DNA of 24,695 bases from a virus. Numbering within the stretch: the first letter of the stretch is position 1; each line of letters begins with the position of its first letter. The stretch is from positions 1 through 24,695 of IMG/VR virus record IMGVR_UViG_3300006928_000077; one strand, 5' to 3'. The notes beneath the pieces are model-generated. The model saw nothing but the letters and a program-made list of their open reading frames with translations, was not told the DNA's origin and searched no databases. The translations under genes were made by a program, and so were the position numbers. Shown in pieces: positions 9,001-24,695 of the stretch.

Positions 9001-9242
9001 GCATTATCGCAGGGTATGACACTTTGCATGACTTTGTGCTGACGGAACGGCATGATACGGTTCAAAGTGATGATTGGATTTTGACCCATGATGGTCATAC
9101 AATCGTCTCTGAAGATCCGATTCGTGCTACAGATTCTGAGATTATTTTAGACAGTATTAGTAATCCTAGGACGATTGCAGATATTGCCTTTGATGACTTT
9201 GAGAGGTTTGATACACATGATGGTGTGTCGACCTTAGATTAA
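6..9242 (+). CDS. Giant phage structural protein (at least 3078 aa), probably 5'-truncated by the window edge
   Basis: An uninterrupted frame of 3078 codons ends in TAA 58 bp before gp8. The ATG at position 6 is simply the first in the window. The codon before it is open and no ribosome site can be seen, and the N-terminus reads like mid-protein sequence, so the true start is probably upstream. The protein is acidic, rich in beta-type alternation, and has no obvious signal peptide or membrane segment. Visible parts: a three-copy cassette with a DFGGPTD core at about residues 900-1330; short LLFEDG-type motifs at about 1516, 1737, 1915, 2003 and 3025; and a LamG/concanavalin-like region at about 2346-2594 (SWSVTAMFNI, INEWYSITITYNGKHCGAGI, HNMKVGLIATHNKALSIREI). 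In T4 the gene before gp8 is gp7, a wedge protein of about 1000 residues; I see no gp7 resemblance. A virion structural or receptor-contact role is inferred from position, size and the lectin-like fold. The exact function is unknown. Confidence 0.85.
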   Translation: MPFPDYEIMTGQNVGLGDTGIDAEVITQEGNKLATLRVRLFENTYQSKPEHPIIDIDYVTSHTGQVYDRIITQGDVHSNVEFKDYRIDDAIVYFQETFGGVATLNVTSTGIEFFDIPGTTVLGRSNTGVYSSWTSNTDLEPIGETRYSTSAFNVMTITTDQSSFVFANGFSNSDPTYPDSRIDVMELVRTGMAPADQMFVYALNPNGMTKAELVGVLDLESIAYFVQEDYDSRSEDDFFFLSEEDPDGDDKFVAEGDSVVLKVLFDEDTADPFFPGQTMEVRDAANTFIMQFDATLVSDFRKMGTDGIISVPYLATNSIFDISILDPGSDYGIDYLPVADTNTFGNQNAILIPHLTGTIKYEGRWLGYDGMLDSPMQVQDSYYWQDFSYSIRSGFEISVYRDMVKRLVHIAGTQLFGELLITINVDAQMFSGGEYGGKYNPNYLIDANSHTMGPFGGPFQDRPFFNLEREFLYTGPDGTVSPFAKGEWQANTEDQYAHIDGRLRDMQINHEPIPHDNLFYANGQPVTYVVTPGKRYNNPKLNELMDRFIVENPSLRPEGLLMEEQSTGPGVSDYIYSEFNDVEVKNQFLHGQRINWTEFRRMRETGEIIWVDYSLDAPREGFDYQVPDDSFEGAWYRVDLEGSHLICEESTGLHGIITEESNQDLYFPLEEYNPVAVNGATIISQITNSSEVQLFGMDFNFNHFDGIKVGQEVELSFTGFEPRYKDSGYNIEVLPPFDEHQVAVEPSYEEFRGQMLNPSLFTPNSGTQGQFTWSFGNASQISFMNNTEAGAMGFSHTWVNQPVTLELEGIGSGVVHVTGVSGVLYNIVSTTIGFPSSQVRIRRGSFITYEGRVNLKDVSGSDLNRATFTATIDEIGLVDPAIESLTVNSGGTVSITNQSVYKFNQEASTSDYYVEHISGPVLDFGGPTDVYGGSHNAIIRQNQDQIIELETTTLTNDDYKIIKSDTGATVTQDTSLGTDLGGTTAMDVYPGYNYGEFDLNGVTIIADVRYRGNGAGIWNTVAAGLSPGDYLHAQYVGHSGNGTAQVLHIDTASQIIYMKGGMVSWSQHSYVDKALYKREILPVESIPMTTNEAVYNFYNVGGDRYKVSHVSGEVIDFGGPTDRYDQGFETTLRIEATQTVRLHQQVKDDYDNIISTSLYAGAAQTLKLTNVEPYVETPKSNGTLTHTQNAGGNFYHFDNISSAGMNIGDTAYITGFAAGNKVLDFKAPITSKGSVEVRLPDMAFVPGIQSGTMGYSNVVVKLYGISPANTGTNDHLNTTFNFGEYTFTPTGSNNEYEIQYISGTELNFGNENEVYGSATAETTYLDPSVTPQGGSGTAFYLYSDYGPFTGTITDIDSAGPIITINEDITGAFLTTDVSVVRQAVTQTFSGAVSHPFYFRLENDSPGAAWDPISFEYPYWAMDGTVFAEAQHEIESQLPIDVTTWNFYNPLYDQERHPSDYDGTNFRDWRDNPTTIYEPYRYRYDEVVATSEIPSILDFYFMLESDNQDHTGELKLLFEDGSIWLKESYHDDWAAAVDYTEANGAVHMHRDWFAFTEPTIVYHNKDFVSANVPVFIRDMGDFRPIPAPTIDMAPSVAMELQEEIRGHGIPLDPTDFHILPLNIPQDFGNFQEEYHLFADMEMFVVTDLGDFNIEEELKVPVPLSYNVELIIGVGISEMAIKLPLGKQCGRLVAEDATGFFEPLYENLINTPESHKSDYYPKQLTITEMTMIQETMEALLYEDGGQLIGETMTHDYVSATNPVLDGYIKNHWFFLENVDQVERGDATDPLQIGGYFPKSVTASRGQGVGFLEMEDTECGQIPIEYHKELYSFGWNGQVLFSADIIQPIEYTMYANVEVQHVLEPVELETLYKSNMPPMTMHVDYENRVEDYTFIPYGLQSDNFGYHYMNEDLSGYAIIFEDGGYILDEKIPEAVRSIRYDWELVDRQFVEYGRGSDFSRSMRGWGMTRDMGDYELDLLDPPRTGLLAPTMLMPGIDGGPQAQWWFLTEDGDHYLMGENGEDRLVDETPWWAVQPHTPRHVEIEIIAALPELKPPLRETPFDNAVSVGPINITSDFPEFEMVDPFFFDATVTMSQETELDLAEFQVATIWYNYPQSPAYRSYDHDSDLRAILNGVYPEPVGGELPADIGIAFIKPLERTALSFEFIVDYDTATIYTYYEPEIFRVDEDLQVRAVDDPIEVEHYLFAPTVMVKANMELPRHLELELDMDNSALDVLGIVLPIHEEHDPVVVGSLIAGSEFLEPDYQHELLIDVAPFIIGQTGQAPELLGFVTQIPTIDLDLSFETLDFDTDIVATADVFPYSAIDRGPNSYGLTPYDAIWTPIGDTALVQRRVDVNGSRINTYDSYPVAKQQDSDFAAANNSWSVTAMFNIENMSGLFDGQNRGNSNLSKWDPMWVWSQARENEGPGFRFGVNNRFMVFAYGEPDASNTFITRLQIAPEEGTWANKYRTRINEWYSITITYNGKHCGAGINEFREDDPDTDWIEGTDDDPQNNQFRFYLTELETGMTTELNTSAHPLTVNAVTTAVPEGFTVGASGPETLRSSSNTGSFSTFYEHNMKVGLIATHNKALSIREIEGTFPERRSGFALDPVGWKYTEDSSFVYVNDAGTIEIEGVMDPTLARVNANTTQIWHFGAGRNDGFVQQGLAGIHSSIPDNQLVDNTVMNPYGLFLNGDNTTNFTVGTTYGIHKDTPDFGDQFHLYAGDISTIERDWSDPFIANNQNISAGGAYTFAGNTSSVKTEYDFEHTGITADVTNLVPYEFFPLEISPTANLGILAYGDPLMGGNSALNNSNSQIVLSIDYDWSTVESEIDRRVKDHRTVDATLDGIPLNVLVYEFTANAITADPDGSIISDVSAPGRGSASTMDLAHTLNTTSLGRKETEISSAIIQYGYSRMFTQGDNVRLHGLIVEEPLQFILAEEDDTPLITEIYEGEEGLATELDVFIIAEGTYDTMILDSELGGEPFFLQTETGTDLDLELFEDYGDSIIAGYDTLHDFVLTERHDTVQSDDWILTHDGHTIVSEDPIRATDSEIILDSISNPRTIADIAFDDFERFDTHDGVSTLD
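2703..3990 (+). repeat. Triplicated protein cassette inside the giant gene
   Basis: Three diverged copies of a cassette of about 60 residues recur with regular spacing. Copy 1 has YYVEHISGPVLDFGGPTDVY (DFGG at residue 923), copy 2 has YKVSHVSGEVIDFGGPTDRY (residue 1116) and copy 3 has YEIQYISGTELNFGNENEVY (residue 1307). Spacing is 193 and 191 residues. Copies 1 and 2 both continue into a Thr/Glu/Gln-rich strand and a DDY motif (TNDDYKII, KDDYDNII). The intervening sequence of about 130 residues is not clearly repeated. Similarity is evident at protein level only, so this is an old internal duplication. Confidence 0.7.
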
Positions 9243-9300: not shown

Positions 9301-11136
9301 ATGCCTGCTATCGTAACGAATAAGTTCCGTATTCACAACTCGGAACAATTTCTGGAAGCATTCTCGGAAGCATCGGGAACTAACCAGTACATATTCATCG
9401 GTAAGGTGTCTCCTTGGGAAGAACATCAATCAGGTGGTGCCTGTGTCAATATCGACTCTGCCCCACCCTCCCCAACGGACACCGTAGAATCTACGGAGTA
9501 TGCCCATTGGGACGACATGATCCTCGCTAAGAGATGTCTCTCTGGCGATGTTTCCCATGTTATCAATCGATACAACTGGACCACTGGAACAGTTTACGAT
9601 CAGTTTGATTCCCAGGATGCATCCTTATATTCAAAACCTTTCTTTGTCGTCACTGAAGATTTTAACGTCTACAAGTGTATGTACAATGCTCACGGAGCAC
9701 AATCCTCTGTAATGCCTTCTAGTATTAACACTACGGCAGGTGTTTCAGAAACTACAGCAGATGGTTATAAGTGGAAATACCTCTATACCATTACTGCTGC
9801 TGATGCTCTCAAGTTTATCACTACCTCTTTCGTACCAGTGCGCAGAGTAAGAACAGACGACTTTACCGTTCTTGGTTCTGCTTCAGGTGAGTTGGCTGAT
9901 GACGGAACTAACCAGTGGGAAATCGAGAACAATTCTATTGACGGAGCAATCGATATAGTATTGCGTAACGCCAGTGGTAATGGTGCTGGATATCTCTTCT
10001 CAGATGCTGAGGTAAATTCCTCAACCTTGGGTGGAGCAACTCCTGACCTTACTCTTGATTTTACCAACTATGGTGGAGCCAATCCTACCCAGGATATCTT
10101 CACTGAAGGTTCCATGTATGTGTCGTCTTCAACCACTGCACAAGGTTTGCTAGCTAAAGTTGCTGCTCACAATGGTACCACTTTTACTCTGGAAGCAAAT
10201 ACAGGTAACTTTGGCTCCCAGACTGGTGATGCTGCTTATACTTTCGATACCACTGCTGCTCTACAGGCAGGTGATATCGTTAAGTTGGGTCCATCTGTTA
10301 CCATTAATGGTGACGGAACTGGTGCCTTGGCTTATGCCGTTGGTTCAAACACCGACAGTATCACTGACATCGTTATCGCAGAGGTTGGGTCTGGCTACCA
10401 CGTAGGTAACCTTACAATCACTCAAAACTCTTCGCAAACACCTACCACTGCAGCAGACTTTCGTCCTGTGTTGAGTCCAGTAGGTGGCCATGGTTACAAC
10501 ATGGTTGAGGAACTGTTTGGATACAACATTATGTTGAATGTACGTTTGGAAGGTTCAGAATCCAACACATTCACCGTATCTAACGATTTCCGTAAGATTG
10601 GTTTGATTCGTGATCCGATTCAAAATGCCGATGCCAATGCGTTGTTTACTTCAACTTTGGCTGACCAGTGCGTTAAGATTAAGATCGGTGCACAGATCGC
10701 AAGTTCAACTGATTACTATGTACCTGACCAAGAAGTTATTGGTTCATTGTCTGGTGCTAAGGCATTCGTAGTTGATTACAACAACACTGCTGATGCCAAT
10801 ACAGCAGGTACTCTTGGATCTGGTTCTGATCCACAAATATATCCGATGCTGAGGGTAACTGAGATTACTCGTGGTGCTAATGGCACTTTAGGTTGGGATG
10901 GTGTTTCCGGTTCTTTCCAAGTTGGCGAGAGAATTATGCGTATCACTGATACCGATCCTACTGGTGTAGCAACCGACCCAGTAACCGCAGCTAACGATGC
11001 GACTTCATCCAACGTGGTCATGGATCCACCTGACATGTTGAAGTATCGTGGGGATATTCTTTATGTTGAAAATCGCTCGCCTGTTTCAAGGGCAAGTGAC
11101 CAGGTTGAAGATATCAAACTTATCGTTCAGTTCTAA
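9301..11136 (+). CDS. 8: Baseplate wedge subunit gp8 (T4-like), enlarged by a central insertion
   Basis: This 611-aa protein is recognisable as T4 gp8 at both ends. Residues 3-9 (AIVTNKF) match T4 AIVTSKF. SPWEEH and PPSPTDTVE match the T4 SEPW...PPYPTDSV region. ADGYKWKYLY at about 153-162, followed by FVPVR, matches GDGYVWEYLF. FRKIGLIRDP at about 430 matches RQISIITNP. The last 36 residues (MLKYRGDILYVENRSP, DQVEDIKLIVQF) match T4 MRHSGEMIYMENRPP and DQTEEINILFTF. In T4, gp8 dimerises and joins gp10, gp7, gp6 and gp53 in each baseplate wedge. T4 gp8 is 334 aa; the extra length lies mainly at about residues 185-425, a Gly/Thr/Asn-rich stretch containing a GSGY beta module (about 337-376). 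The start is set by AGGAG six bases upstream. Enlarged gp8 proteins are, to my knowledge, usual in T4-like marine phages. Confidence 0.92.
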   Translation: MPAIVTNKFRIHNSEQFLEAFSEASGTNQYIFIGKVSPWEEHQSGGACVNIDSAPPSPTDTVESTEYAHWDDMILAKRCLSGDVSHVINRYNWTTGTVYDQFDSQDASLYSKPFFVVTEDFNVYKCMYNAHGAQSSVMPSSINTTAGVSETTADGYKWKYLYTITAADALKFITTSFVPVRRVRTDDFTVLGSASGELADDGTNQWEIENNSIDGAIDIVLRNASGNGAGYLFSDAEVNSSTLGGATPDLTLDFTNYGGANPTQDIFTEGSMYVSSSTTAQGLLAKVAAHNGTTFTLEANTGNFGSQTGDAAYTFDTTAALQAGDIVKLGPSVTINGDGTGALAYAVGSNTDSITDIVIAEVGSGYHVGNLTITQNSSQTPTTAADFRPVLSPVGGHGYNMVEELFGYNIMLNVRLEGSESNTFTVSNDFRKIGLIRDPIQNADANALFTSTLADQCVKIKIGAQIASSTDYYVPDQEVIGSLSGAKAFVVDYNNTADANTAGTLGSGSDPQIYPMLRVTEITRGANGTLGWDGVSGSFQVGERIMRITDTDPTGVATDPVTAANDATSSNVVMDPPDMLKYRGDILYVENRSPVSRASDQVEDIKLIVQF

Positions 11137-11181: not shown

Positions 11182-14100
11182 ATGCCAGTACAAGATTCAC
11201 TTACATTTACATCTGCACCATATTATGATGATTTTAATGAGAAGAATGATTTTTATAGAGTTCTTTTTAGACCATCATATGCGGTACAGGCAAGAGAGTT
11301 AACTCAAAGTCAAACCATTTTACAGGATCAAATCACGAAACTGGCGAATACAACTTATGCCGATGGTGACCTGCTTTCAGGGGGTGGTGTTATAATTGAC
11401 ACGACCTTAGCATCAGTTAAGTTGGAGAACCAGTTTGATTCAATTGACCTTGAGGTAATTCAGTTCCAACATCAAGTAATAGAAGGTGCGTCGGATACAA
11501 CTGGCACAGCACGGGCATACGTAGTAGGAGTTGTCCCTAGGGACGCAGATGACTACAACACTCTTATAGTTCGTTATTTGAACGATCACAAGTTTGGTGA
11601 TGGTATTACGGTATCGACCGATGATGACTCGGTTCAGGCGACTACAGTTTCTGCAACAGGTCCATCTAAGATTCCAAATGCTTCAAATGTTGCGTCAATG
11701 GTTTCAGTTCAGGAATCCGTCATTTATATGTCTGGGTTCCTGAACTACGTACCAGAGCAATATTTGATACTTGAAAAATATTCATCGGAACCCTCATATT
11801 CAGTGGGTTTCTTTATTGATGAGATTATCGTCGATGAAAACGATGCTAATGCCAGTCCTGTACTGACGGGCACTGACATCGGCGAAACTCTTTTAGACCC
11901 TGCCAATGGTGCATACAACTACAATGCTCCAGGGGCAACAAGGTACCGACAAAAGTTGGTATTAGCAAAACGTGAGTATAACTCAGATAATGTATTTTTT
12001 GCTGAAGCCAATACCAAGTACCTTGAGTTATTCAGAATTGCAAATGGAGCAGTTAGTTCTTCTTTCAACTCAATCGACCCTGAGGATATTTTTAGGGATG
12101 ATAGGGAAGAGTTTAGAGGGCAGATTAAACCTTTAACTTTATCCATAACAGAGAACAACGGAGTTGATGGTACAACTAACTCCTCGCAAGTTGCCGTTAT
12201 CACAGGCAACAATACATTTTTTGATAAAGACTTTGCAGTTGGTGACATAGTTTATCTTAGTAACAAACAATACTACGGCAATGGCGTAGTAAGCACCAAC
12301 GGGTCAGGTTTCGTGACAGGTAATGGTACTTCCTTCCAAACTGACTTTGTAGCAGATCAAAAAATATTTATCAATCATAAAAAATATGACATCGTCTCAG
12401 TCTCAAATGATACTTCACTCTATGTAGCAGGTCAAACTGAAAAATACATGACCAACCAACCTTACATTGTTGGTGCACTCTCACATGCTGAAGTTGTATC
12501 AATCGCATCCAATACACAAATGACATTGAATACTTTGGTTGGTGACGGGTCAGTACAGAATATAATAAACTCCAACACAGTTTCAGTCCACGTTGAGCCA
12601 GGGTTATTGCAATATGGTAATGCTATTGTTAATCACCAAAGGACAAAAACTGTTACTGTCAGAAAACCAAGAGACAAACAGTTTGTGGATGGAGTTACAG
12701 TTGGAAAAGAAGTCAAAAATTATTTCTTGGTTACAGGGGAAGAAGCACCAGGTGTCATTGATGTACAAAACATAGATCAGGTGATTTACTGCCATACTTG
12801 CCCAGTTCCAAATACTGCATCACAAACTCAGTTAAACTCCACTGTCATGGCGACTGCTAGGATTAGAGACTTTGTCCCAATCAATGTTAAAAATGTTGAC
12901 CAAGGGTACAATGAATATGCAGTATCACTTTGGAATGTTAAACCAAGAACACTGGCAAATACTTTAGGTTATATTGCCAACAATAGTTTCCTTACGCTCA
13001 ATGGGCCAACCGCAGCACTTGAGGATGCCTACAATGGTGTCACAATCGAGTTCACAAGTGGTAAGTTAAAAGGTCACCGAGCAAAAATCTTAAAATATTA
13101 TCAGAACACGTCTTGTGATGTAGAGGAGTTACCCAATACACCTCTTGCAGATGATGGATATAGATTTATCTATCAGACAAAAGACGTAAAAGCAATATGC
13201 GTCCACAATGGTCTTGCTGTACCTACCAAATTCAGAGTTTCGGCAAACAATGGAGTGGACTCCTCAGGTGGATCCTATCTATTTTCCCAGAGTCAGGATT
13301 CCACGTTCTTGTATGAACTTCCTTACGAGGTTTCGACCTTAAAGGATGCCACAGGATCAACGAAGACTAGTTACAGAAGTCGTCGCATGAGGGAAGTCAA
13401 TGTAACTGCTGCAGGTGGACAAGCAGCGAGTTTTACATTAGATTCAGGGACTGGGTTCACATTCACAGAATTTGATACCCAGACAGCAGCAGGACTGGAC
13501 GCATCGCTCGCAAGAGAACTTTTTCAGGTATTTGTTACCACATCGCCTGATACAGCACAAACACCAACAGGTAACTCACTTACAATTTCATCCAATGTGG
13601 ATATCGTTACCCTATCAGGTGGTGGTGCATCAGGAACAAAAGCACAACTTGCAACCTTCTTTGTTGGTGATGCTGGAGCATTGGCTTCAGGTGGTACCAT
13701 TGCAGTCGTTTACACTGTTGAGACTGACAACCTTGGACCCAAATCAAAAACACTGATTGAAGGTGAAACCATTACTGTCATTGATCCAAATACACAACTT
13801 GGTGGTATTGATTCAGTTCAGACTATTGACGTCTCTCGAATCAAAGCAGTTATTGATACACAAGTTGATGCATCAGGCACGGTGTTAAGTTTAAGTGCTG
13901 CAGATCTTGAAGCAGCAGCACAGGGGTCGTCACTGACTGGAGCGAATACTATTTACGTTACAGAAAATTACGAGATACACACAGGACAAGAGGACAACTA
14001 CTACGGTCATGGTGGAGTAAGATTGGTTGGGCCACCACCCACGGGTCAAATCGGAATCGTGTTTGACTATTGGGCACACGGTGATTTGAATGGTGGAGAC

Positions 14101-17100
14101 TTTTTCTCAATCGACTCATATCCAACTACAATGAAAAAGGAAGAAATACCTTCCTACACGACCTCAGCAGGCAAGGTAATCAACCTTGGAAATGCGATTG
14201 ACTTTAGACCAACAGTACAAAATTTGGGCATTGACTCAGGTGTACAAAATACAAGTTCAGTTGCTGATAACAATATTGATAACTATGGTGAGATTTGGAC
14301 CAATGAAGTAAAAAGGTTCCCAACTGCTGATGGCGGTATCTCAATGAGTCTTGGGTACTATACTAACAGAACAGACACGGTCGTTGTTGATACGGAAAAA
14401 GATATTGAGTTACTTACAGGCATTGCATCATCCTCACCAAGTGCTCCAAATCTAAGAAAAGAACATTTGGAACTTGTTGATATTATGTGTGCCCCATACG
14501 TATATGATGTCTTGGATGTTAGACTTAAACCTGAGTTTGCAGAGTTCAATGAATTTTATGACATGACTGTAAACTTTGCTGAGTCAAACAACAAAGGGTT
14601 GCCAGAAATACTTGGTAGACCTCAACCAGTTGTTTTCCAAGCATTTGATAACTTTGAAGGACACTCTAAAGCAGATATACAGAATCCTGATTATGCCGCA
14701 GCGATTGATCCATATGAAAATATTCTGAGACCAGCAATCATCACAACCAACTGGGATATGAACTATTCACCGATTGGTTCTAAGAATGTTGATAGTTATA
14801 GTTCACTAGTGACTGCTGAAGCCATCACTTCAAATACTGCATATACACAACCTTTTTACACGGCCAAGATACCAATCAACCCTTTTGGTCGCAGTCAGTT
14901 TAGAGGCACTATGCAGATTTCACCTCAGTATGCCAACTGGTTTGATACTGATATTTCCCCAATCATTAATATTAATATGATTGGTGAGAATGATGGTTTC
15001 TTTAAGTCATCAGTTCCATATAAGAATATTTTTACAAATATGCATGAGAACTATTGGTATGGAGTTCATTCAAAAAGAGATATATTTGGTAAGAAGTCCT
15101 CACGACAATATCAGAACTTTGGGGCACAGATTAATCAAGTGCTCCCACCAATGCAGTTTAGAGAGCAGTTGACGCCAAACCTGTCAAGGGACTTGTCGGT
15201 GGCACCATACTTAAATGCAGATACAATATATTTTAGTGCAAAGGGAATGAAAGGTTTCGCCAATCTGTACATGTACTTTGATAATGAAAGGGTTGATACA
15301 AGGTTTGTACAGTTCACCAAAAAGATTACATTTGAAGATGCAGAAATTTCATCAGGTGCATATCAGGTAGGTGAGACAGTCAGACAAACTGTTGGACTTG
15401 AGACTGCACTGGGACAGATTGTCTTGGTGATGAAGCCAACACCTGAACGAACTCAAATACATATCATACAAACAAGTGCACAGGACTTTAGTACAGCATC
15501 AGTTGATACAGTTGATGGTGTTACCTCAAATGCAAGAGGAAATATATTTACGATTGAGGAAGCACCAACTACACTTTTTGCTGATCAATATGGCATGGTA
15601 TCAGGTGCGTTTACGATACCAGCAGGTAGGTTTACTGCGACAGACAAACTTCTCAGAATCACTGATGCAGATGATAATGATCCAAATGCAAATGAATCAA
15701 CTTTTTCTGAGTCAATATACTACGGCAAACCTGTTGCGCCATCTGATAAGACTACAAGACAAACCATAGCCAGAAGATCTGACAACGATGATCCAACTGT
15801 CTATTACACTGAATATGATCGTTCCAAAAAATCAACGAACTTTTTGCGTGAGTTTGGACAAGAAATTTATGTTGACCCATCTGCATTTCCAAAAGGATTA
15901 TTCTTAACAGGTGGTTTGGTTTATGTTGCAAACAATGACTCCGAGGCCAACACGGGTGCTCCATTAAAGATTGGAATCAAACCGATTGTTGATGGTTTCC
16001 CAAGTCCTTCAGAGATATTACCATTCTCAGAGGTCATTATTCAGGCAACTGAGGTTAATGCAACCGCAACCCCCGATACAGAAAATGCTGAAACTCAAAC
16101 TTCATGGTTATTCTCAAACCCAGTATTCCTGTCACCAGGAAAGTCATATGTGTTGACCTTTGATACAGATAATCCAGAGTATCAACTGCACATGGCAAGG
16201 GTTGGTGAGTCACTGACAAATGAAGACCATAGGGTGCCAAGATTTAAATACTTCCCAGGATTGTGGAGAACAAACAACCATGGGGTTTGGAAGAGAGACG
16301 ACAAGACAATGCTTTGCTTAGATTTACATAGAGCAAAGTTTTACAACACACAAAACTCTGCTGCTTTCTTCAACATCAAAGAGTTCCCATCCTCTAACGT
16401 GGCGTATGATTCATTCTACTTGAGAGCACCACACATGTCCTTTGGCAATGTGGCGCAACCTGAGTTTACATACAAGTCCACGACAGTCTCAGGTTCTGAT
16501 CTGGAGTTTAAATCATTTAAGCCAAATCAGAATTATGACTTTTCAATATTTGGAAGAGTGGGACAACAAAGAGTTATGACTGATGATGCAAATACTATGA
16601 CAATCAATGTCAGTATGTATACGGATGATGAATACGTATCACCAGTTTTAGATAAAGATCAGATGCAACTGATCACGGTCGAAAATATAATAAATAACCT
16701 TGAACTTACCAATGATGCTTTTATCATCGAGGAGCCAGGGTTTGGATATGATTATGATACGACTGCTACAGGAAATACAAATGCGACTATAACAATCTCA
16801 GGTGGTGCGATATATGCAAATGGTACTGAGCAAGGGCAAGCATCTTTGATAATGGGTCCAGGTGGACGTATTGTTGATATTGTTCTAAGTGATCCAGGAT
16901 CATTGTATACAGGAAATGTTGCAGTAACGATTACGAATAAAACTGGTGCAACACCTCCAACTACTGATGCAATCATAAGAGTCAAAAGTGAAACTGACCC
17001 ATACCTTGGTAATGCTGGATCAAGATACATCTCAAAGGTTTATGATGTTGGTACCACTGCAAAAGGAATCAAGGTTCTTGCAGAGGGTGTAAGACCAGGT

Positions 17101-17382
17101 GGAACAGATATTTTAGTTTACTTTAGAGCAACATCAGGTTTCTCATCGAGGAAACTCCAAGATGAATTTTACCAGATGTTACCAGGAACACAAAATAGCA
17201 ATGTGTTTGGTGATGGTATGACGGTCTTTGGATGGCAGACAGCAGATGACTTTTTACTGAGAGACGAATATCAAATCGTATATGATACATTCTCAAGTTT
17301 TCAAATTAAGGTTGTCTTTATATCATCTGATTCATCGACAGTTCCTTATCTCAAAAACATGAGAATTTTTGCTTACTCATAA
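11182..17382 (+). CDS. DUF4815-type virion structural protein, 2066 aa
   Basis: The N-terminus carries YYDDF (14-18), FYRVLFRP (24-31) and AVQARELTQSQTILQDQI (34-51). This is the hallmark of DUF4815 structural proteins of T4-like marine phages, whose exact role is not established. A pair of related beta modules follows, with GNNTFF at 342 and GNGTSF at 380. Near the C-terminus are DEYVSPVLDKDQ, a GGAIYANG...GSLY beta module (about 1874-1922) related to one in the gp8 insertion, then YISKVYDVG and PYLKNMRIFAYS, also typical of the family. There is no signal peptide or membrane segment. By position it fills the T4 slot of gp9 to gp12 next to gp8, so a baseplate-peripheral or fibre-attachment role is inferred, not shown. 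The start is supported by AAGAGAAG. The stop is only seven bases from the next start, suggesting coupled translation. Confidence 0.88.
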   Translation: MPVQDSLTFTSAPYYDDFNEKNDFYRVLFRPSYAVQARELTQSQTILQDQITKLANTTYADGDLLSGGGVIIDTTLASVKLENQFDSIDLEVIQFQHQVIEGASDTTGTARAYVVGVVPRDADDYNTLIVRYLNDHKFGDGITVSTDDDSVQATTVSATGPSKIPNASNVASMVSVQESVIYMSGFLNYVPEQYLILEKYSSEPSYSVGFFIDEIIVDENDANASPVLTGTDIGETLLDPANGAYNYNAPGATRYRQKLVLAKREYNSDNVFFAEANTKYLELFRIANGAVSSSFNSIDPEDIFRDDREEFRGQIKPLTLSITENNGVDGTTNSSQVAVITGNNTFFDKDFAVGDIVYLSNKQYYGNGVVSTNGSGFVTGNGTSFQTDFVADQKIFINHKKYDIVSVSNDTSLYVAGQTEKYMTNQPYIVGALSHAEVVSIASNTQMTLNTLVGDGSVQNIINSNTVSVHVEPGLLQYGNAIVNHQRTKTVTVRKPRDKQFVDGVTVGKEVKNYFLVTGEEAPGVIDVQNIDQVIYCHTCPVPNTASQTQLNSTVMATARIRDFVPINVKNVDQGYNEYAVSLWNVKPRTLANTLGYIANNSFLTLNGPTAALEDAYNGVTIEFTSGKLKGHRAKILKYYQNTSCDVEELPNTPLADDGYRFIYQTKDVKAICVHNGLAVPTKFRVSANNGVDSSGGSYLFSQSQDSTFLYELPYEVSTLKDATGSTKTSYRSRRMREVNVTAAGGQAASFTLDSGTGFTFTEFDTQTAAGLDASLARELFQVFVTTSPDTAQTPTGNSLTISSNVDIVTLSGGGASGTKAQLATFFVGDAGALASGGTIAVVYTVETDNLGPKSKTLIEGETITVIDPNTQLGGIDSVQTIDVSRIKAVIDTQVDASGTVLSLSAADLEAAAQGSSLTGANTIYVTENYEIHTGQEDNYYGHGGVRLVGPPPTGQIGIVFDYWAHGDLNGGDFFSIDSYPTTMKKEEIPSYTTSAGKVINLGNAIDFRPTVQNLGIDSGVQNTSSVADNNIDNYGEIWTNEVKRFPTADGGISMSLGYYTNRTDTVVVDTEKDIELLTGIASSSPSAPNLRKEHLELVDIMCAPYVYDVLDVRLKPEFAEFNEFYDMTVNFAESNNKGLPEILGRPQPVVFQAFDNFEGHSKADIQNPDYAAAIDPYENILRPAIITTNWDMNYSPIGSKNVDSYSSLVTAEAITSNTAYTQPFYTAKIPINPFGRSQFRGTMQISPQYANWFDTDISPIININMIGENDGFFKSSVPYKNIFTNMHENYWYGVHSKRDIFGKKSSRQYQNFGAQINQVLPPMQFREQLTPNLSRDLSVAPYLNADTIYFSAKGMKGFANLYMYFDNERVDTRFVQFTKKITFEDAEISSGAYQVGETVRQTVGLETALGQIVLVMKPTPERTQIHIIQTSAQDFSTASVDTVDGVTSNARGNIFTIEEAPTTLFADQYGMVSGAFTIPAGRFTATDKLLRITDADDNDPNANESTFSESIYYGKPVAPSDKTTRQTIARRSDNDDPTVYYTEYDRSKKSTNFLREFGQEIYVDPSAFPKGLFLTGGLVYVANNDSEANTGAPLKIGIKPIVDGFPSPSEILPFSEVIIQATEVNATATPDTENAETQTSWLFSNPVFLSPGKSYVLTFDTDNPEYQLHMARVGESLTNEDHRVPRFKYFPGLWRTNNHGVWKRDDKTMLCLDLHRAKFYNTQNSAAFFNIKEFPSSNVAYDSFYLRAPHMSFGNVAQPEFTYKSTTVSGSDLEFKSFKPNQNYDFSIFGRVGQQRVMTDDANTMTINVSMYTDDEYVSPVLDKDQMQLITVENIINNLELTNDAFIIEEPGFGYDYDTTATGNTNATITISGGAIYANGTEQGQASLIMGPGGRIVDIVLSDPGSLYTGNVAVTITNKTGATPPTTDAIIRVKSETDPYLGNAGSRYISKVYDVGTTAKGIKVLAEGVRPGGTDILVYFRATSGFSSRKLQDEFYQMLPGTQNSNVFGDGMTVFGWQTADDFLLRDEYQIVYDTFSSFQIKVVFISSDSSTVPYLKNMRIFAYS

Positions 17383-17389
17383 GGTGTAA

Positions 17390-20233
17390 ATGGCCAATAC
17401 AGACAACAGCAATAATAGCATAGCAAATACTTTAGATCCGATTGTAGAAATATCTCAAGCAGATACTCTTGATTTCTTTAGGTTACAATTCAATACCTTA
17501 GCAAATCTTGTAAACATCTCAATCACGGATCAGGATGTTGCTAACCTCGATCATAGGCTAGCAGGTGGAAACCTTTTCTTTGGGAATACTTTCGTAATGA
17601 GAGGACCAAGTGGTTCGTTTGCTGCTGGTGACATTACTTGTAACAATATTATAATGACAGGTGATATCACAGGTACCATTAATTATATTGCTGATGACGA
17701 CAACTCAACAATGATTAAGTTGGATGGCGCAGATCCACTGATTGATGATGAAACAATAAAATTTTATGCAGGTGGTATTGCAAATGGTGAAGTCGCTACG
17801 ATGAATAGTGAGGTCACTATTATCAATACCAAACTGGATCTATCAGGCGATGCTAATACAGCAGGTACACTTTATGTTAATGGACCAGCAGATATTAGAG
17901 GCAACACAACCTTTTTTGGGCCAGTGTCACTGCCTCAAATCGCAGAATCAAATACAGCAGGTCTTGAAGGACAAATAAGACTCAATACTGATACTGATGT
18001 AGTACAAGTTTACGACACCGCAAATGGATGGGCCAATGTGGCAGGTGATCTTGGGAACCTGGCCAGTGTAGATTTATCTACGGCACCTCAGAATCAAGAG
18101 GTTCTCACTTGGGATGGGAGCAAATGGATTGCTCAAGTTGTTACACCTGTCGGCACTTCAGGTATTGGAGACCTAGCAGACATTGATCTCGCTACCACTG
18201 CACCTCAATCTGGTGATAGGTTAAGGTATGATGGTACAATGTTTGTTCCTTCTCAGATACAATTTGATGAGATAGTTGATGTCGATTTATTCTCACTCGC
18301 ACCCACGGATGGGCAGGTGTTACACTTTGTTGCGGCAAACAATACTTGGGTACCAAATACCGTAGCAAATACATCGCTAAAAGAGTTAAACCTATCAGGC
18401 AATACAGTAACTGCCAAACGTAATGATGATTCGGTTATAACAATGGACATGTCTCCATTGTTCCAGACCATTACACAGTTTGCTGATGTACATACATCTG
18501 GATTAACGAATGCATCTATTCTTATTTACGATAGTGACTTAGCAAAATGGGTTGCAGGGCAAGAGACAGCAGCAGCAAATACTTCGACTGCATCAGGTGC
18601 TCTTGGATCACCAACCTCTGCAAAGGCCAATACAGTCACTTATTACAGAGCAGATGGTACATTCTACGATGTAAACTTAACAAACTTATTAACAGGGATT
18701 GATAAACTCGGTAATGTCGACTCGACGGGAGTTACCCACCACCAGGTCCTACAATGGGAATCCGCAGAAAGTATGTGGAAGCCAGGAGATGTAGTAGCGA
18801 CGAATGTTGATTTGTCAACAAATATGCTTACCGAGTTGTCAGACGTTGACTTACCTGCCGTAAGTGCTCTGACAGACAAATATGTATTAAAGTGGGATGC
18901 CACAGCAACCAAATGGACAGCACAAGAAGATTTAAATGACCCTTCACTGCATGGCATTGGAATAATGGCGGATGTAGATACATCCAACACGGCATCACCT
19001 ACACAAGATTTATACCTTAGATGGAACCCAACCAACTCAAGTTGGTATGCAGATCAATGGTCTGCGAATGATGTGCCTGAGTTGAGACATCTACCGGATG
19101 TTAATATTGGATATCCTTATGTAGATCATCCCAACCATGGGCAGGTTCTAAAATGGAACTCAATCAACTTGGCATGGGAGCCAGCAGATGATGCTCTAAC
19201 TGAGATCGGAACTTTTGGGTTGGATCGCCTTGCTGATGTTGATATCATTACAACTGCGCCAACTGATGGACAGATACTAAAGTTTGAGTCAGCAACAGGA
19301 AACTTTATTCCATCAGATGATACCTCATACCTTGCTATCCTTGACACAGTTCTCTTGGATGCAATGAATGATGTAGACACAGTAACAAATGGTAAAGATG
19401 TTGGTGATGTACTTAGATGGGATGGCACATTGTGGCAAGCACATACAATGCCACTTGCTCCCAATACAGTCAATGATATACCAGATGTATCAAGCACAGC
19501 ACCAACTGCAGGACAAATATTAAAGTATGATGGAACTGAATGGCAAATGGCTGATGAGTATGAATATACTCTTGACCTCACGTCATCAAGTATTTTTGAG
19601 TTATCTGATGTAACCATGGGGTCAACTCCTCAGGTCAACTCCCAACTTATTTGGGATGGGACAGCATGGGTGCCTCAGGCAGTTCCAGTTATACCTACAG
19701 AACTTGATGACCTTAGCAATGTTGCTTCAACTACTCCAACAACAGGGCAAGTCCTAAAATGGTCAGGCAGTGATTGGTATCCTGAAGATGAAGCAGGAGC
19801 AGGGTCAGTAACAGATTTAAACAATCACACAATCGATGAACTCAGTGATGTCCTAAATTATGGTAGTGCACAAGTAAATGATGTGCTAACTTGGAATGGG
19901 ACTCAATGGGGTGCCGCAAGTGCAGCATCAACGATTGATACAAAAGCATTGCAAGATGTTGAAGAAAATTCAACTGCAGTTGATGAGCAAGTGCTTGCTT
20001 TCAATGATTCAACAAGCAAGTATGAACCTACGAACATTTCAAGTTTATTGAGAGCACCTGTCACAACTATCGCTTCCTCAACTGGAAGTGCTGGTGACAA
20101 AGCAGGAAATATAGCAATGGATGCAAATTACTTATACCTTTGCACCGCAGATTATGATGGATCAAGTGATATTTGGAAAAGAATAAGTTTCGCAGGGGCG
20201 ATGGCTCTTGAATCAGGGGACAACAACTGGTAA
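17390..20233 (+). CDS. Repeat-rich tail fibre protein (947 aa, about 15 DVD/WDG repeats)
   Basis: The N-terminus (ISQADTLDFFRLQFNTLANL, 21-40) resembles that of the next fibre (ITQIETTNTFDDWRVL) and may be the attachment end. Residues of about 110-215 hold two half-modules shared with that fibre: DETIKFYAGG, and GQIRLNTDT. From about 219 to 884 there are about 15 imperfect repeats of 28-60 residues following the plan L..L.DVD....AP..GQ.L.WDG..W.P. The C-terminus has SAGDKAGNIAMDANYLYLCT and IWKRISF, an ending I know from other phage tail fibres. This suggests a long fibrous trimeric shaft with a small tip. There is no enzyme motif. The start is 7 bases after the previous stop; the only ribosome-site-like sequence, TAAGG, overlaps that stop codon, so translation is probably coupled. 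Host-range fibre is the likely role; the receptor is unknown. Confidence 0.85.
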   Translation: MANTDNSNNSIANTLDPIVEISQADTLDFFRLQFNTLANLVNISITDQDVANLDHRLAGGNLFFGNTFVMRGPSGSFAAGDITCNNIIMTGDITGTINYIADDDNSTMIKLDGADPLIDDETIKFYAGGIANGEVATMNSEVTIINTKLDLSGDANTAGTLYVNGPADIRGNTTFFGPVSLPQIAESNTAGLEGQIRLNTDTDVVQVYDTANGWANVAGDLGNLASVDLSTAPQNQEVLTWDGSKWIAQVVTPVGTSGIGDLADIDLATTAPQSGDRLRYDGTMFVPSQIQFDEIVDVDLFSLAPTDGQVLHFVAANNTWVPNTVANTSLKELNLSGNTVTAKRNDDSVITMDMSPLFQTITQFADVHTSGLTNASILIYDSDLAKWVAGQETAAANTSTASGALGSPTSAKANTVTYYRADGTFYDVNLTNLLTGIDKLGNVDSTGVTHHQVLQWESAESMWKPGDVVATNVDLSTNMLTELSDVDLPAVSALTDKYVLKWDATATKWTAQEDLNDPSLHGIGIMADVDTSNTASPTQDLYLRWNPTNSSWYADQWSANDVPELRHLPDVNIGYPYVDHPNHGQVLKWNSINLAWEPADDALTEIGTFGLDRLADVDIITTAPTDGQILKFESATGNFIPSDDTSYLAILDTVLLDAMNDVDTVTNGKDVGDVLRWDGTLWQAHTMPLAPNTVNDIPDVSSTAPTAGQILKYDGTEWQMADEYEYTLDLTSSSIFELSDVTMGSTPQVNSQLIWDGTAWVPQAVPVIPTELDDLSNVASTTPTTGQVLKWSGSDWYPEDEAGAGSVTDLNNHTIDELSDVLNYGSAQVNDVLTWNGTQWGAASAASTIDTKALQDVEENSTAVDEQVLAFNDSTSKYEPTNISSLLRAPVTTIASSTGSAGDKAGNIAMDANYLYLCTADYDGSSDIWKRISFAGAMALESGDNNW
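18044..20041 (+). repeat. About 15 tandem protein repeats (DVD...WDG) in the first fibre
   Basis: Units begin with a hydrophobic-x-x-hydrophobic-x-DV core and end in a WDG..W.P turn. Examples are LGNLASVDLST (from residue 221), IGDLADIDLATTAP, LDRLADVDIITTAPTDGQIL, VNDIPDVSSTAPTAGQIL and LDDLSNVASTTPTTGQVL. Units keep the protein plan but differ widely in DNA, and the spacing varies through spacer segments, mostly in the first half. The last unit (ALQDVEENST) is the most degenerate. Confidence 0.8.
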
Positions 20234-20242: not shown

Positions 20243-23233
20243 ATGGCAGGATACACAAATCTAACAGATATTACACAGATAGAAACTACCAATACGTTCG
20301 ATGATTGGAGAGTATTAACAAACCAAACCATCGCAAGGGTGAATAATGCCTCAGCAAGTAATACTAATGGGCATGCAGGATATGATGAAATAACAAATCG
20401 TATAGTGGTAAGAGATAACACTGCTAGTTTTTCTACCAATAATGTTACTGCTAATAACCTTACGGCAAATCAATCAAACTACTTTTTTGCCAATGGTGAG
20501 ACCCTGCATGGTAATACGGTAATCACAAATAGTGGTTTTTATGTCAATGCTGATCCAGTAACAGACCCTTCAGGTCTGCGATCAGTAGTTATGAGAACAA
20601 CTGATGCATTTTTGATGCCAGTTGGAAATACCCAAGAGGAGCCAGTCAATGGTGAAATGGGTATGATGAGATTTAACACTGATACTCTTCAGTTGATGTA
20701 CTACAACCCATCGACTGCAAGTTTCTTGGGTATTGGTGGTGCTCAGATGTCCGACCGTGACCAGGATACGATTGTCAATGTTGAAGGTGCTCCAGGAACT
20801 GATGAAGACACAATCAACTTCTACGTTGGTAATACTGGTGACACATTTCCCGTAATGACATTAAATGCCGTACTCTCAAATACTTCTATTAATGCTACAT
20901 TCCGTGATCACGTAAGATTTGAAAAAGACATTACCATCACAGGTAACCTTACTGTCCTTGGTCAACAATTATCGATTGACGCAACTACACTTGCTATTGA
21001 GGACAAACTGATCAACCTTGGTATGAACTATGGTCTAAGAAATGGTGTCAATGTATCTCAAAATGGCGCCAATCCTAAGTTTACAATGCCTGTTGATGGA
21101 ACAACAAACATACAAATACCTCACTCATTGCAACTTGATGACCTTATTTGGGTTACCAATATCAATGATGTTCATAACTTACCTGAGGGTATATACAAAG
21201 TTGAATCAATCGATGGACTATTTGAGTTTACACTTGAAAATGTAGATGGGTCAGCGATTGGTGTTATTGTAGGTTCATCCTCACCTCAAGCATCTTGGTC
21301 TGGTCCACAATCAGATGATGCTGTATCAGGTGGTGGTTTTATTCTTCCAGGTAATACCGAGCATAGTTTAAAGTGGGATGACGGCAATCAATATTTCACA
21401 ATGTCTGATGGTTTGTATATTGCAAACACAAACGCATTGGTACTACCAAATGGTAATACATCCCAACGTCCATCCCAAAGTCTCTCAACAGGAAATACTG
21501 AAACAGACGCAGTAGGTGACTACCTTGGCTCAATCCGATTCAACAATGAGTTGAACACTTTTGAAGGTTTGATTGAAGGACCAGGTGGCACAGGTTTTAA
21601 GACATGGGTTGACTTTAGAGGCATGATTGACAATGACAATGGTGCTGATACCTTTATCAATGTCTATGGATCAAACACAGTCCCAACTGCCTTAACTTCA
21701 TCAGCAGGTCACACACTTGATGATATAGTTTTTGTCGCAAGTGGAACTGAGAGATTCTTTATTGACAAACTGGGATATGCAAAGTTTTCATCCAACAGTG
21801 GTTTGACCATACCTCGAGGTACGACAGCAGAACAACCACAGTTCCCTTCAACTGATGTTGGCACAGATGATGCAACAGGTGAGGGTATGGAACTTGGTAT
21901 GATTCGTTTCAACACTGATGAGAATATCTATGAGGGTGTTATTGCTGATAGCACAAGCACTGATAGTTTACGTTGGGTTCCGATTGGCCATGGTGGTTAT
22001 ATGGATACCTTTGGAGGAAGTGCAAACAATACTTTCCTCTCAGTTGTTGGTAATGACGCAGATGGAACAGCAGTTGGACCAGCAGGCAATCATGTCGACA
22101 TAAGTGGTGGTACTGATAATCATACGCATGATGACTTTATTGTTGTCACCAATGGTACAAAAAGACTTTTTATTGACTCAACTGGCTGGGCATCTTTTAC
22201 TTCAAACTCTACTTTGGGACTGCCCCGTGGTACATCTGCACAACGACCAACGACTGTTGGAGCAGGACTTGATGCAGGTCATATAAGATTTAACACATCC
22301 ATAAACTCCTATGAAGGAGTCCTGCTTGATGGCACAACTTGGGCAGGTTTGGGAGGAGTTGTTGACTCCGCAGATGGTGGGGATACCTTTTTAAACGTAT
22401 ACGGTAACCCAACAGACCCAACTGGCATTCTACCATCAGGGGGTCATACACTTAATGATATGATTTTTGTAACCAATAGTGTCAAACGTATGCATATTGA
22501 CGCAAATGGTTACGTTCAAATCGTTGGTAACAATGCAACCGTAGTTATACCAAAGGGTACAACTGCTGAGAGACCTGCTGATGCCGATCATGGTAAAGAG
22601 GCAGGTGGTATAAGATTCAACACTGACCTGAATAGTTATGAAGGGGTTCTGGCAGACGGAACAACTTGGGCAGGTCTTGGAGGTGTTGTTGATGCTGCAG
22701 ATGGTTCTGATACATTTATCTCAGTTTACGGTCATGCAACAAACCCAACTGCGATTACGGCAGATTCCGATCATACTCTGAATGATATAGTTTTCACAAC
22801 TGACGGCACGCACCGCATGACAGTGGATCGCGCAGGTAACGTAGTAATATCATCTGATGGAACAACCTTTATTGGTGATTCTAAACTCCATGTCATTGGA
22901 GGTACACAAGGTTTACATGTTACTGCCAATGTCAAGTTTGATGACAGACTTACAACTGATGATCATGTTGAATTCAATTCGACTCTAAATACTGATGGAG
23001 CAGTTACGTTTGGATCAACTCTTGGAGTTACAGGGATTGCTACTTTCGCTGCTCATGTTGACATGGACTCCTCTATGACAGTTGATGGAACTGCGCAGAT
23101 GTTGGGTACTACGAAAATTAAAGCAGATAACACTTCTGCTCAGTATAGAATGTTGAGATGTACTAATGCTGATGGTACGACTGAATGGGTCGATTTTGGA
23201 GTGTTTAACTCTGCAGGAACCAGAGTATTTTAA
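20243..23233 (+). CDS. Modular tail fibre protein (996 aa) with two-part repeats
   Basis: The N-terminus (ITQIETTNTFDDWRVLTNQT, 10-29) looks like a fibre attachment segment. Five A-B repeat units follow. Part A runs P.GTTAERP...G.IRFNT...YEGVL..GTTW; part B runs DTF..VYG...HTLNDIVF.T.GT.R..ID..GY. The conserved Pro of part A is at residues 126, 402, 524, 661 and 770. Between units 1 and 2 is the segment ITGNLTVLGQQLSIDATTLA (from 230) ending in IEDKLINLG, a module familiar from fibres of T4-like marine phages, and a beta-rich insert (about 275-400). The C-terminus has short VTFGSTLGVTGIATF-type beta-helix steps and ends in MLRCTNADGTTEWVDFG. No enzyme motif is seen. It most likely forms a second fibre or a partner of the first; which one carries the host-contact tip cannot be told. 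Confidence 0.85.
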   Translation: MAGYTNLTDITQIETTNTFDDWRVLTNQTIARVNNASASNTNGHAGYDEITNRIVVRDNTASFSTNNVTANNLTANQSNYFFANGETLHGNTVITNSGFYVNADPVTDPSGLRSVVMRTTDAFLMPVGNTQEEPVNGEMGMMRFNTDTLQLMYYNPSTASFLGIGGAQMSDRDQDTIVNVEGAPGTDEDTINFYVGNTGDTFPVMTLNAVLSNTSINATFRDHVRFEKDITITGNLTVLGQQLSIDATTLAIEDKLINLGMNYGLRNGVNVSQNGANPKFTMPVDGTTNIQIPHSLQLDDLIWVTNINDVHNLPEGIYKVESIDGLFEFTLENVDGSAIGVIVGSSSPQASWSGPQSDDAVSGGGFILPGNTEHSLKWDDGNQYFTMSDGLYIANTNALVLPNGNTSQRPSQSLSTGNTETDAVGDYLGSIRFNNELNTFEGLIEGPGGTGFKTWVDFRGMIDNDNGADTFINVYGSNTVPTALTSSAGHTLDDIVFVASGTERFFIDKLGYAKFSSNSGLTIPRGTTAEQPQFPSTDVGTDDATGEGMELGMIRFNTDENIYEGVIADSTSTDSLRWVPIGHGGYMDTFGGSANNTFLSVVGNDADGTAVGPAGNHVDISGGTDNHTHDDFIVVTNGTKRLFIDSTGWASFTSNSTLGLPRGTSAQRPTTVGAGLDAGHIRFNTSINSYEGVLLDGTTWAGLGGVVDSADGGDTFLNVYGNPTDPTGILPSGGHTLNDMIFVTNSVKRMHIDANGYVQIVGNNATVVIPKGTTAERPADADHGKEAGGIRFNTDLNSYEGVLADGTTWAGLGGVVDAADGSDTFISVYGHATNPTAITADSDHTLNDIVFTTDGTHRMTVDRAGNVVISSDGTTFIGDSKLHVIGGTQGLHVTANVKFDDRLTTDDHVEFNSTLNTDGAVTFGSTLGVTGIATFAAHVDMDSSMTVDGTAQMLGTTKIKADNTSAQYRMLRCTNADGTTEWVDFGVFNSAGTRVF
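21434..22870 (+). repeat. Four consecutive A-B repeat units in the second fibre
   Basis: Units start around the part-A Pro at residues 402, 524, 661 and 770, giving spacings of 122, 137 and 109 residues. The last two units are the closest: both contain NSYEGVL, DGTTWAGLGGVVD and HTLND. The second of the four is disturbed in its middle, with GHGGYMDTFGG replacing AGLGGVVD, and has a longer part A. Confidence 0.8.
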
Positions 23234-24331
23234 ATGACCAGACCTTTAGTAAATCCCGTAAGTGAAACCGCAGGTGAACTTACTTCAGGGATGAATATCG
23301 GTGTCGGTGGACAATTTCAGTTACGTGAGATGTCTGACACTGAGATCAAAAACAAATTTGCCAGACTATTAATGGGATTTTGGGCCAGCCAGAATAATGG
23401 TAGAGGTGCTATCTCATTAAGGACTGATCATGCTGGCAATCGTGGAACTTGGATCATGCGATTCCGTAATGATGCAAGTGCATCCCACCCTGTTTCCACA
23501 ACCAACTTTGCTCAATCCAATTATAGCCTAGATCAAGACGAGAATAACAAAACAACCAATCAGGCAGATGCTGTAAACTTACGTCCTGTTTGTAGAACAA
23601 CTGGTGCGTCATTTCAAGAGATGACTGATACTCAGTTGGAGACTGACATTATACGTTGTTGCAAAGAGGAGTTTGTTAACAATCAATACCCACTAGGTGG
23701 TTATCATATGGGTACATCAAACCCAGATGGTGATACATGGGTTAGCAGAGGTTCATTCGTCAACAAGCATAGATATTATGGTGGCACTTCTTCTGAGACT
23801 ATTCACCTAAGACAAAAAACAAATGTTGTTGGTGGTGGTACTTATTATGGTGAGTCAGGTAAAAAACCTATGAGAGCATTTGATGGTACTCCAAAGGGAT
23901 TGATTGAGATGGATAATAATGCCATCAGAGCATGCTACCAAAACTATGGTAATGCTATGATGGGAGGACTTACAGGCACCAACTTTGGTGAGTACAGAGT
24001 CACGGCAGGCACTACTGCTCCCGCATCAGGTACATGGGTTGCTTGCGGTACCTGGACTGAGAAATTTGCTACAGTTTCTCAATATACATATTCGCAAGGA
24101 TATACTGGATACTATTCTCAAGGTTACACTGGATCATATACCAGAATATTTGGTGGATCAGTCCAAGGTGTTTACCAGCATACGTACTCAAGTGGATATA
24201 CGGGTTTATATTCAAATCACTACAATGGTTTGACAGTCAACCCAAATGGTGGCAATAATGGTGCGCATAGGCAAGCACCTAATAATGATTATGAAACACA
24301 GGCGTATACATTTTGGAAAAGAATAGGATAA
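23234..24331 (+). CDS. Putative small fibre/adhesin (365 aa): three tandem domains plus a Tyr/Gly octad tract
   Basis: The ATG follows the previous stop directly (TAAATG), pointing to translational coupling. AGGA lies 14 bases upstream, too far for a normal ribosome site. Three repeats of about 96 residues begin at L30 (LREMSDTEI), F127 (FQEMTDTQL) and L223 (LIEMDNNAI). Each runs through a helix-like segment to a Gly-rich strand and a GTW or DTW turn (GTWIMRF, DTWVSRG, GTWVACG). Residues 286-333 form six octads rich in Tyr, Ser and Gly, such as YSQGYTGY and YSSGYTGL, and the protein ends in FWKRIG. Similar domain chains and YTG tracts occur, as I recall, in uncharacterised T4-like cyanophage proteins. 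A role as fibre tip or adhesin is inferred from its place after two fibres and from the aromatic repeat tract. A chaperone-like accessory role is less likely. Confidence 0.75.
   Translation: MTRPLVNPVSETAGELTSGMNIGVGGQFQLREMSDTEIKNKFARLLMGFWASQNNGRGAISLRTDHAGNRGTWIMRFRNDASASHPVSTTNFAQSNYSLDQDENNKTTNQADAVNLRPVCRTTGASFQEMTDTQLETDIIRCCKEEFVNNQYPLGGYHMGTSNPDGDTWVSRGSFVNKHRYYGGTSSETIHLRQKTNVVGGGTYYGESGKKPMRAFDGTPKGLIEMDNNAIRACYQNYGNAMMGGLTGTNFGEYRVTAGTTAPASGTWVACGTWTEKFATVSQYTYSQGYTGYYSQGYTGSYTRIFGGSVQGVYQHTYSSGYTGLYSNHYNGLTVNPNGGNNGAHRQAPNNDYETQAYTFWKRIG
23321..24064 (+). repeat. Three tandem domains of about 96 aa in the 365-aa protein
   Basis: The start motif [L/F]-x-EM-[S/D/T]-[D/N] falls at residues 30, 127 and 223 (spacing 97 and 96). 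The end motif [G/D]TW is at about 71-73, 167-169 and 266-268, followed by a K or D at the domain edge (D80, K178, K277). The linkers after domains 1 and 2 differ. The link after domain 3 is replaced by the octad tract. Confidence 0.7.
24089..24232 (+). repeat. Six in-phase 24-bp (8-residue) units rich in Tyr/Gly
   Basis: Units at 24089, 24113, 24137, 24161, 24185 and 24209 read YSQGYTGY, YSQGYTGS, YTRIFGGS, VQGVYQHT, YSSGYTGL and YSNHYNGL. The first two and last two are clear repeats. The middle pair is degenerate but keeps the exact register. Confidence 0.75.
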
Positions 24332-24471
24332 CCTACCCCAAAGATCACCCTGCATATAAAAAGATAGATGAGGTGATGTATCAACATTGGAAGATGCATA
24401 GATCTGTTATGCGTCCCAATGATCAATTCATTCAAGATATTCTAAATACCTTGAACACTCCAACCAAATAA
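24328..24471 (+). CDS. Probable tiny hypothetical gene (47 aa) with uncertain start
   Basis: Between the 365-aa gene and the next one, the frame open from 24295 to TAA at 24469-24471 encodes a plausible soluble peptide. From 24328 it reads TYPKDHPAYKKIDEVM, then YQHWKMHRSVMRPNDQF and IQDILNTLNTPTK. The first ATG is at 24376 and would leave only 31 aa, yet the protein-like sequence, with charged helix-forming residues, continues upstream of it. A start at ATA 24328-24330, overlapping the previous stop as ATAA with GGAAAAG six bases upstream, would explain all of it. TTG at 24313 (52 aa) or GTG at 24373 are alternatives. No known function is recognised. A real gene is likely because 143 bp would otherwise be noncoding in a very compact region. 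Confidence 0.45.
   Translation: MTYPKDHPAYKKIDEVMYQHWKMHRSVMRPNDQFIQDILNTLNTPTK
24442..24448 (+). promoter_or_regulatory. Possible late promoter motif CTAAATA before the last gene
   Basis: A second CTAAATA, identical to the one before gp8, lies 26 bases upstream of the ATG at 24475. That distance would give a short leader from a T4-type late promoter. It sits inside the probable mini-gene, so it may be only an Ile-Leu-Asn-Thr codon run. Confidence 0.25.
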
Positions 24472-24474
24472 ATT

Positions 24475-24695
24475 ATGACAGTTGATATTGAATTAGCACA
24501 ATCAGAGAAAGGTTCTTCTTTCCCCAAGGGAACCATTGTTGAAGCCATATGGCAAGAGGGTAAAAATCATGTCAATATTATTTTCGAGCAAGAGGGTAGT
24601 ACTGATAAGATAGGAATCGTTGCAGGCAAAGGCACTGAGCAGTGGGATGAGTTTTTTGGCATCCATACTGAAGAAGAGGTAGACAAGTGGACTGC
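24475..24695 (+). CDS. Unrecognised gene, 3' end outside the window (at least 73 codons)
   Basis: An ATG three bases after the mini-gene's TAA opens a frame that stays open to the window end. It reads MTVDIELAQSEKG, then IVEAIWQEGKNHVNIIFEQ, GIVAGKGTEQWDEFF and TEEEVDKW. It is acidic, has three Trp in 73 residues, and shows a mixed beta/alpha pattern without signal peptide or membrane segment. No good Shine-Dalgarno is visible in the A/T-rich sequence before it (CCAAATAAATT), so it may depend on coupling with the upstream frame. I do not recognise the family. Being next to the fibre cluster and in the same direction, it probably belongs to the same late block. Confidence 0.7.
   Translation, partial: MTVDIELAQSEKGSSFPKGTIVEAIWQEGKNHVNIIFEQEGSTDKIGIVAGKGTEQWDEFFGIHTEEEVDKWT

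Follow-up and report, generated by a model that had tools for sequence, protein, structure and literature searches.

We consider it likely that P0001, a 365-residue protein encoded on the plus strand at positions 23234-24331 of the window (the whole stretch of DNA analyzed, a virus record of 24,695 bases), serves as the distal subunit in the tail fiber of a T4-like, marine-type myovirus, formed as an antiparallel beta-hairpin needle that is inserted into the third of three collar-type domains. The evidence lies in a Tyr/Gly repeat within the protein, in the mirrored layout of this repeat among its many viral homologs, and in the genes around it.

The Tyr/Gly tract and the domains of P0001

The tract spans residues 286-333 in the ORF translation (24089-24232) and reads YSQGYTGY YSQGYTGS YTRIFGGS VQGVYQHT YSSGYTGL YSNHYNGL, exactly as an earlier note on this DNA had quoted it. 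All but one of its 12 tetrads begin with an aromatic residue, and only one of its 12 aromatics sits elsewhere, a pattern matched in 0 of 200,000 shuffles of the tract; its column identity at 4 and 8 residues was likewise reached by 0 of 200,000. The octad put forward in the earlier note stands as a regularity but not as the base period, which is four: the unit is a tetrad, aromatic-x-Gly-x, and the octad of the P0001 clade consists of two alternating tetrad types, YS-x-x and Y-x-G-x. Over the seven codons shared by the first two octads there are three differences, all synonymous (TCG/TCT, GGA/GGT, TAT/TAC). Since the YSQGYTG copies differ only in this way, the repeat is maintained at the protein level and is not the product of recent DNA slippage.

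The N-terminal region of P0001 consists of three copies of one domain, an arrangement common to its relatives. The first copy, D1 (residues 22-117, 23297-23584), contains a helix and strands modeled with high confidence and aligns with the second, D2 (residues 118-217, 23585-23884), with an hhalign E value of 8e-12 and a probability of 97.5%. D2 carries no insert. Once the tract is removed, the alignment of D2 with D3 continues through the junction (hhalign E 1.4e-18, probability 99%). The tract therefore interrupts D3 between two of its strands, in the hairpin loop of this third domain. The first part of D3 (residues 218-285, 23885-24088) includes a GTW motif region and a modeled strand at 268-279. 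Its second part (residues 334-365, 24233-24328) ends in TFWKRIG, within a strand (353-363, pLDDT about 90) that is the equivalent of the LxW-K-T strand in D2.

Inside the tract, anchor spacing (44444|8|4444, with no bulges) delimits an outgoing arm at 24089-24151, with anchors Y286, Y290, Y294, Y298, Y302 and F306, and a returning arm at 24161-24232, in which V310 is followed by anchors Y314, Y318, Y322, Y326 and Y330. The tip element YTRIFGGSVQGVYQHT (residues 302-317, 24137-24184), with a predicted turn around G307-S309, overlaps the adjoining ends of both arms. This center had been read as two degenerate octads; it aligns instead with a conserved tip element of the relatives, represented by YTLFYGGSVGGYFTGS, FFGGFLNGNF and similar sequences. 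All of these parts are on the plus strand.

P0001 was modeled as a single chain with AlphaFold, together with 28 relatives as input. The structure prediction proposed in the earlier note was thus run for the monomer: the domains were confident, and strands were placed at 281-290 in the outgoing arm and 326-335 in the returning arm, symmetric about residue 308 inside the tip, but pLDDT fell below 50 at 289-323. For L144, a short-armed relative, the model predicted one long beta-hairpin with continuous strands at 247-278 and 290-322, centered on residue 284, the equivalent of 308 in P0001. Block pLDDT was 75-94 proximally and 42-56 near the tip, with 279-290 below 50. In Foldseek searches, neither the P0001 nor the L144 model had a significant counterpart among solved or viral structures.

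Mirror symmetry and the fold of the tract

About 140 related tracts were taken from IMG/VR, and tracts were encoded as the spacings between aromatic anchors. Arm lengths were compared in 50 non-redundant single-tip tracts, with tracts carrying several interruptions and multi-tip and giant proteins set aside. The left arm had exactly one link more than the right in 46 of the 50 (r = 0.999), where random tip placement expects 2.8, over arms ranging from 4 to 24 tetrads (links); each of the four exceptions was off by one link. The same relation held in all six further tracts from the N-terminal-motif set, which had been fetched without using the tract. In 9 of 11 tracts, 6-residue bulges lie at mirrored distances from the tip, and a K-type bulge faces a TS-type bulge in 32 of 32 mirror pairs, a result equaled or exceeded in 4 of 100,000 within-tract label shuffles. 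The basis of this pairing is ten partly related tracts, all of them from relatives of the bulge-free P0001. With the tip excluded, residues also covary between the arms, most strongly at the mirror register (z = 11.2 for Phe/Phe pairs and 6.4 for nonGly/nonGly pairs), with weaker echoes two tetrads away that arise from the octad alternation. The cross-strand register is fixed only to within a few residues (sum 616, 618 or 620), because the nonGly/nonGly, F/F and F/nonGly signals are linked to one another.

These regularities bear on whether the tract has a fixed fold at all. A flexible, sticky, low-complexity Tyr/Gly adhesive would agree with the low pLDDT in P0001 and with a composition rich in Gly, Tyr, Thr and Ser. 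However, arm lengths as well as bulge positions and types stay matched over up to about 160 residues per side. Moreover, the anchor spacings outside the largest gap were even in 2242 cases and odd in 62, near-uniformity that is expected if Tyr and Gly have to stay on a single face of a beta-strand and is not expected of a disordered chain. We therefore regard a disordered adhesive as improbable.

If the tract is folded, it could in principle form a linear fiber, either a beta-solenoid or a triple-helix-like rod, with each octad making one turn of a one-way coil. The exact 8-residue phase in P0001 fits such a coil, as does the recurrence of nonGly tetrads at every second tetrad across the family. 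The view taken in the earlier note, of a physical repeat that holds its phase across the center, is borne out, and the protein does lie in a tail-fiber gene block. The folds it gave as examples fared worse. A beta-solenoid is a one-way coil without a privileged center, and neither a single central tip with equal arms nor mirrored bulges are predicted by it; none of 140 related tracts contained collagen-like Gly-x-x runs; and the C-terminal strand goes back to the D3 domain. We thus assigned P0001 to neither class, and a linear coil seems quite improbable. The 8-residue phase that was expected to persist in relatives is broken in many of them, by odd tetrad numbers or by 6-residue bulges, whereas the mirror rule survives.

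The mirror pattern might also be a by-product of duplication, one arm having been copied from the other without any pairing in the fold. Tracts with bulge orders of KT|KT and KTKT|KTKT are compatible with a direct repeat as well. Against this, the order in L186 (KKTTKKK|TTTKKTT) and L146 (KKT|KTT) is mirrored with types swapped, and is therefore not explained by tandem duplication; by eye, L007 (KKT|KTT) has the same order. Direct copying, in addition, gives no equal arms around a unique tip, and the two YSQGYTG copies of P0001 itself have diverged at synonymous sites. Duplication without pairing is in our judgment very unlikely. A membrane-inserting beta-barrel formed by the hairpins at the fiber tip, in the style of pore-forming proteins, is scarcely credible, since the long-hairpin pore proteins among the weak Foldseek neighbors of L144 (none significant, E 0.5 and higher) reflect the long hairpin only, the longest arms, with 24 tetrads (about 30 nm in beta-strand geometry), far exceed the thickness of a membrane, and the gene occupies the position of a fiber gene.

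An inserted antiparallel hairpin would be built as follows. From the hairpin loop of the third collar-type domain, an outgoing beta-strand would present alternating Tyr/Phe and Gly on one face and Thr, Ser and Asn on the other. The chain would turn at the conserved Gly-rich tip, F306-GGS-V310, and a return strand, antiparallel and in register, would run back and complete the collar domain. The hairpins of several subunits, three if the analogy with T4 gp37 holds, may bundle together as a stiff needle at the end of the fiber, and the length of this needle would be set by matched units gained or lost on both arms at once. By the same analogy, the tip or the surface of the needle may contact the host.

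Relatives and genomic neighborhood

Degenerate DNA scans for the repeat each matched at least 120 IMG/VR contigs, dozens of which encode fiber proteins with N-terminal domains of the P0001 type. Some of these matches (L017, L018, L023, L036 and similar) were rejected as out-of-frame translations or simple repeats of unrelated low complexity. Independently of these, a search for N-terminal motifs recovered 177 relatives. Full-length blastp between P0001 and its relatives reached E values down to 3e-41, and the N-terminal 284 residues alone gave 3e-30 with phmmer. Their C-terminal ends also resemble that of P0001 (TFWKRIA, KLWLRTA).

Several members differ in scale. Giant Tyr/Gly tetrad proteins of 2,600-3,700 residues are encoded in viral contigs (L103:3064-12477, L034:3020-14143, L069 and L091). 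Tandem pairs of fiber paralogs with long octad arms, of up to 24 links, occur in L008, L003, L045, L052 and L089, where the tip is not of the short form and has 18-19 residues (YGSGSE..NP..SSGP).

Known families offered little. P0001 and 28 relatives had no match in PHROG, and in Pfam, apart from isolated stray hits, they gave only Gly-zipper hits of the composition type (9 of 29 members, best E 3e-6), so that we assigned them to no known Pfam or PHROG fiber family. P0001 itself had no match in Pfam, PHROG, the PDB (phmmer and profile search) or the phage collection, and a close-relative scan with it found none. Searching phages by tblastn with P0001 or with the tract alone returned nothing even at E 10, in part because BLAST masks low complexity. 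Matches to a "structural protein" of S-RIM2 were rejected as an unrelated tract of the NVTG type; this cyanophage protein (L216:7387-13125) is fiber-like and carries NVTG/NLTG tetrads, another Gly repeat of period four. In the genome collection, the pattern was present in two contigs only, L214 and L215, both metagenome-assembled (Gammaproteobacteria, Muricauda), which are probably viral contigs binned with hosts. Among open-licence papers, we found no description of the Tyr/Gly repeat in the literature.

The genes upstream of P0001 place it in a structural block. On the plus strand, a baseplate wedge protein of the T4 gp8 family (9301-11136; PF09215, E 1.4e-18; phrog_438, E 8e-104) is followed by a VrlC-like giant baseplate protein (11182-17382; phrog_358, E 4e-191), whose best tblastn matches are the annotated VrlC proteins of the Pelagibacter phages Mosig EXVC030M and HTVC008M. 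Next on this strand are P0003, a tail-fiber connector-like protein (17390-20233; phrog_9627, E 1e-39; phrog_677, "baseplate wedge tail fiber protein connector", E 2.4e-26), and P0002, a repetitive virion structural protein (20243-23233; phrog_6005, E 8e-35), which ends directly before P0001. The gp8 and VrlC genes thus lie upstream of the fiber genes, as in the structural block of T4-like (VrlC-type) myoviruses, and the gene order matches that of other VrlC-type phages, namely the relatives and C48C1. At the start of the window, a 3078-residue structural protein (6-9242) matches baseplate and virion profiles (phrog_17744 and others) over residues 319-443 only.

Downstream of P0001, the contig end cuts off a partner gene, P0006, of which the start is present on the plus strand (24475-24695; profile match E 8e-6 in the full set and 2.8e-9 in a 3-sequence set). 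Of 200 related tract genes, 156 have a member of its unnamed family, of about 150 residues, encoded no more than 900 nt downstream; tandem paralog pairs, in which another tract gene comes first, account for many of the listed exceptions. A gene of the same family follows the fiber-like gene of C48C1. By analogy with gp38, which serves gp37, the P0006 family is a candidate dedicated fiber chaperone or folding partner, and its product probably aids folding of the fiber. A short ORF of about 52 residues with a TTG start (24313-24471) overlaps the end of the fiber gene and precedes P0006; L236 and L238 have no obvious counterpart of it.

Comparison with known fibers

The closest architectural parallel is T4 gp37, in which the D10 collar (residues 811-881 and 1010-1026) is split by the inserted D11 stem and tip (PMC6957217). 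In both proteins a collar-type domain is interrupted by an elongated insert, as seen for P0001 in the D2/D3 alignment, and the C-terminus closes the collar. Both also have an out-and-back stem with a tip in the middle of the insert, a layout suggested for P0001 by sequence symmetry, covariation and a model of moderate to low confidence. T4 gp37 requires the chaperone gp38 for folding, and the P0001 gene has a conserved gene after it. Unlike the His-lined, iron-filled core of the gp37 stem, however, the P0001 family has Y/F-x-G-x tetrads in arms of variable length. Only one of 140 related tracts has an HxH motif, P0001 has none, and no match in sequence or fold was detected (phmmer, profile search, Foldseek against the PDB); we therefore rejected P0001 as a member of the gp37 family. 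The HxH iron-binding tail fibers of marine phages such as alterophage R22Y (PMC11705849) are long trimers that contain repeated motifs. P0001, probably a fiber of marine type, resembles them in its use of repeated motifs, but the P0001 family has an aromatic/Gly repeat in place of HxH repeats.

Among named phages, C48C1 (OQ984149, Kyanoviridae) encodes a hypothetical protein of 3347 residues, WJE88074.1, that shares the N-terminal domains and the Tyr/Gly tetrads of P0001, and that has a C-terminal TLYVRVA strand and a downstream partner family as in the P0001 family. It is about nine times longer than P0001, with many interruptions by other domains. Hundreds of Tyr/Gly tetrads occur in this protein (L126:17983-28026), and hairpin formation there would be remarkable. 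Pelagimyophages and cyanomyophages are described as having a host-recognition cluster with tail fibers downstream of VrlC (PMC7029224), and the fiber genes of the P0001 locus, too, lie directly downstream of VrlC. The structural-protein domains named in the parts of that paper we drew on are YHYH, collagen, concanavalin A and YadA, with no mention there of a Tyr/Gly hairpin family.

It is an evenly balanced proposition that these proteins form a novel class of fiber tip, made of self-complementary Tyr/Gly beta-hairpin needles with sequence-programmed length, arms in mirror order and a bulge pairing code (xKx/TSx, xRx/xRx). Our analysis shows how mirror symmetry and covariation can reveal the fold of a low-complexity, poorly modeled repeat. 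It also offers a fold and a likely role for a large group of viral proteins without a Pfam or PHROG profile. Testable predictions follow for fiber length, for cross-strand contacts and for a folding partner that may be dedicated to the fiber. Should the pairing code prove true, fiber length and register would be readable from sequence and would evolve by paired insertions, and the bulges would provide a rare example of protein strands with readable complementarity.
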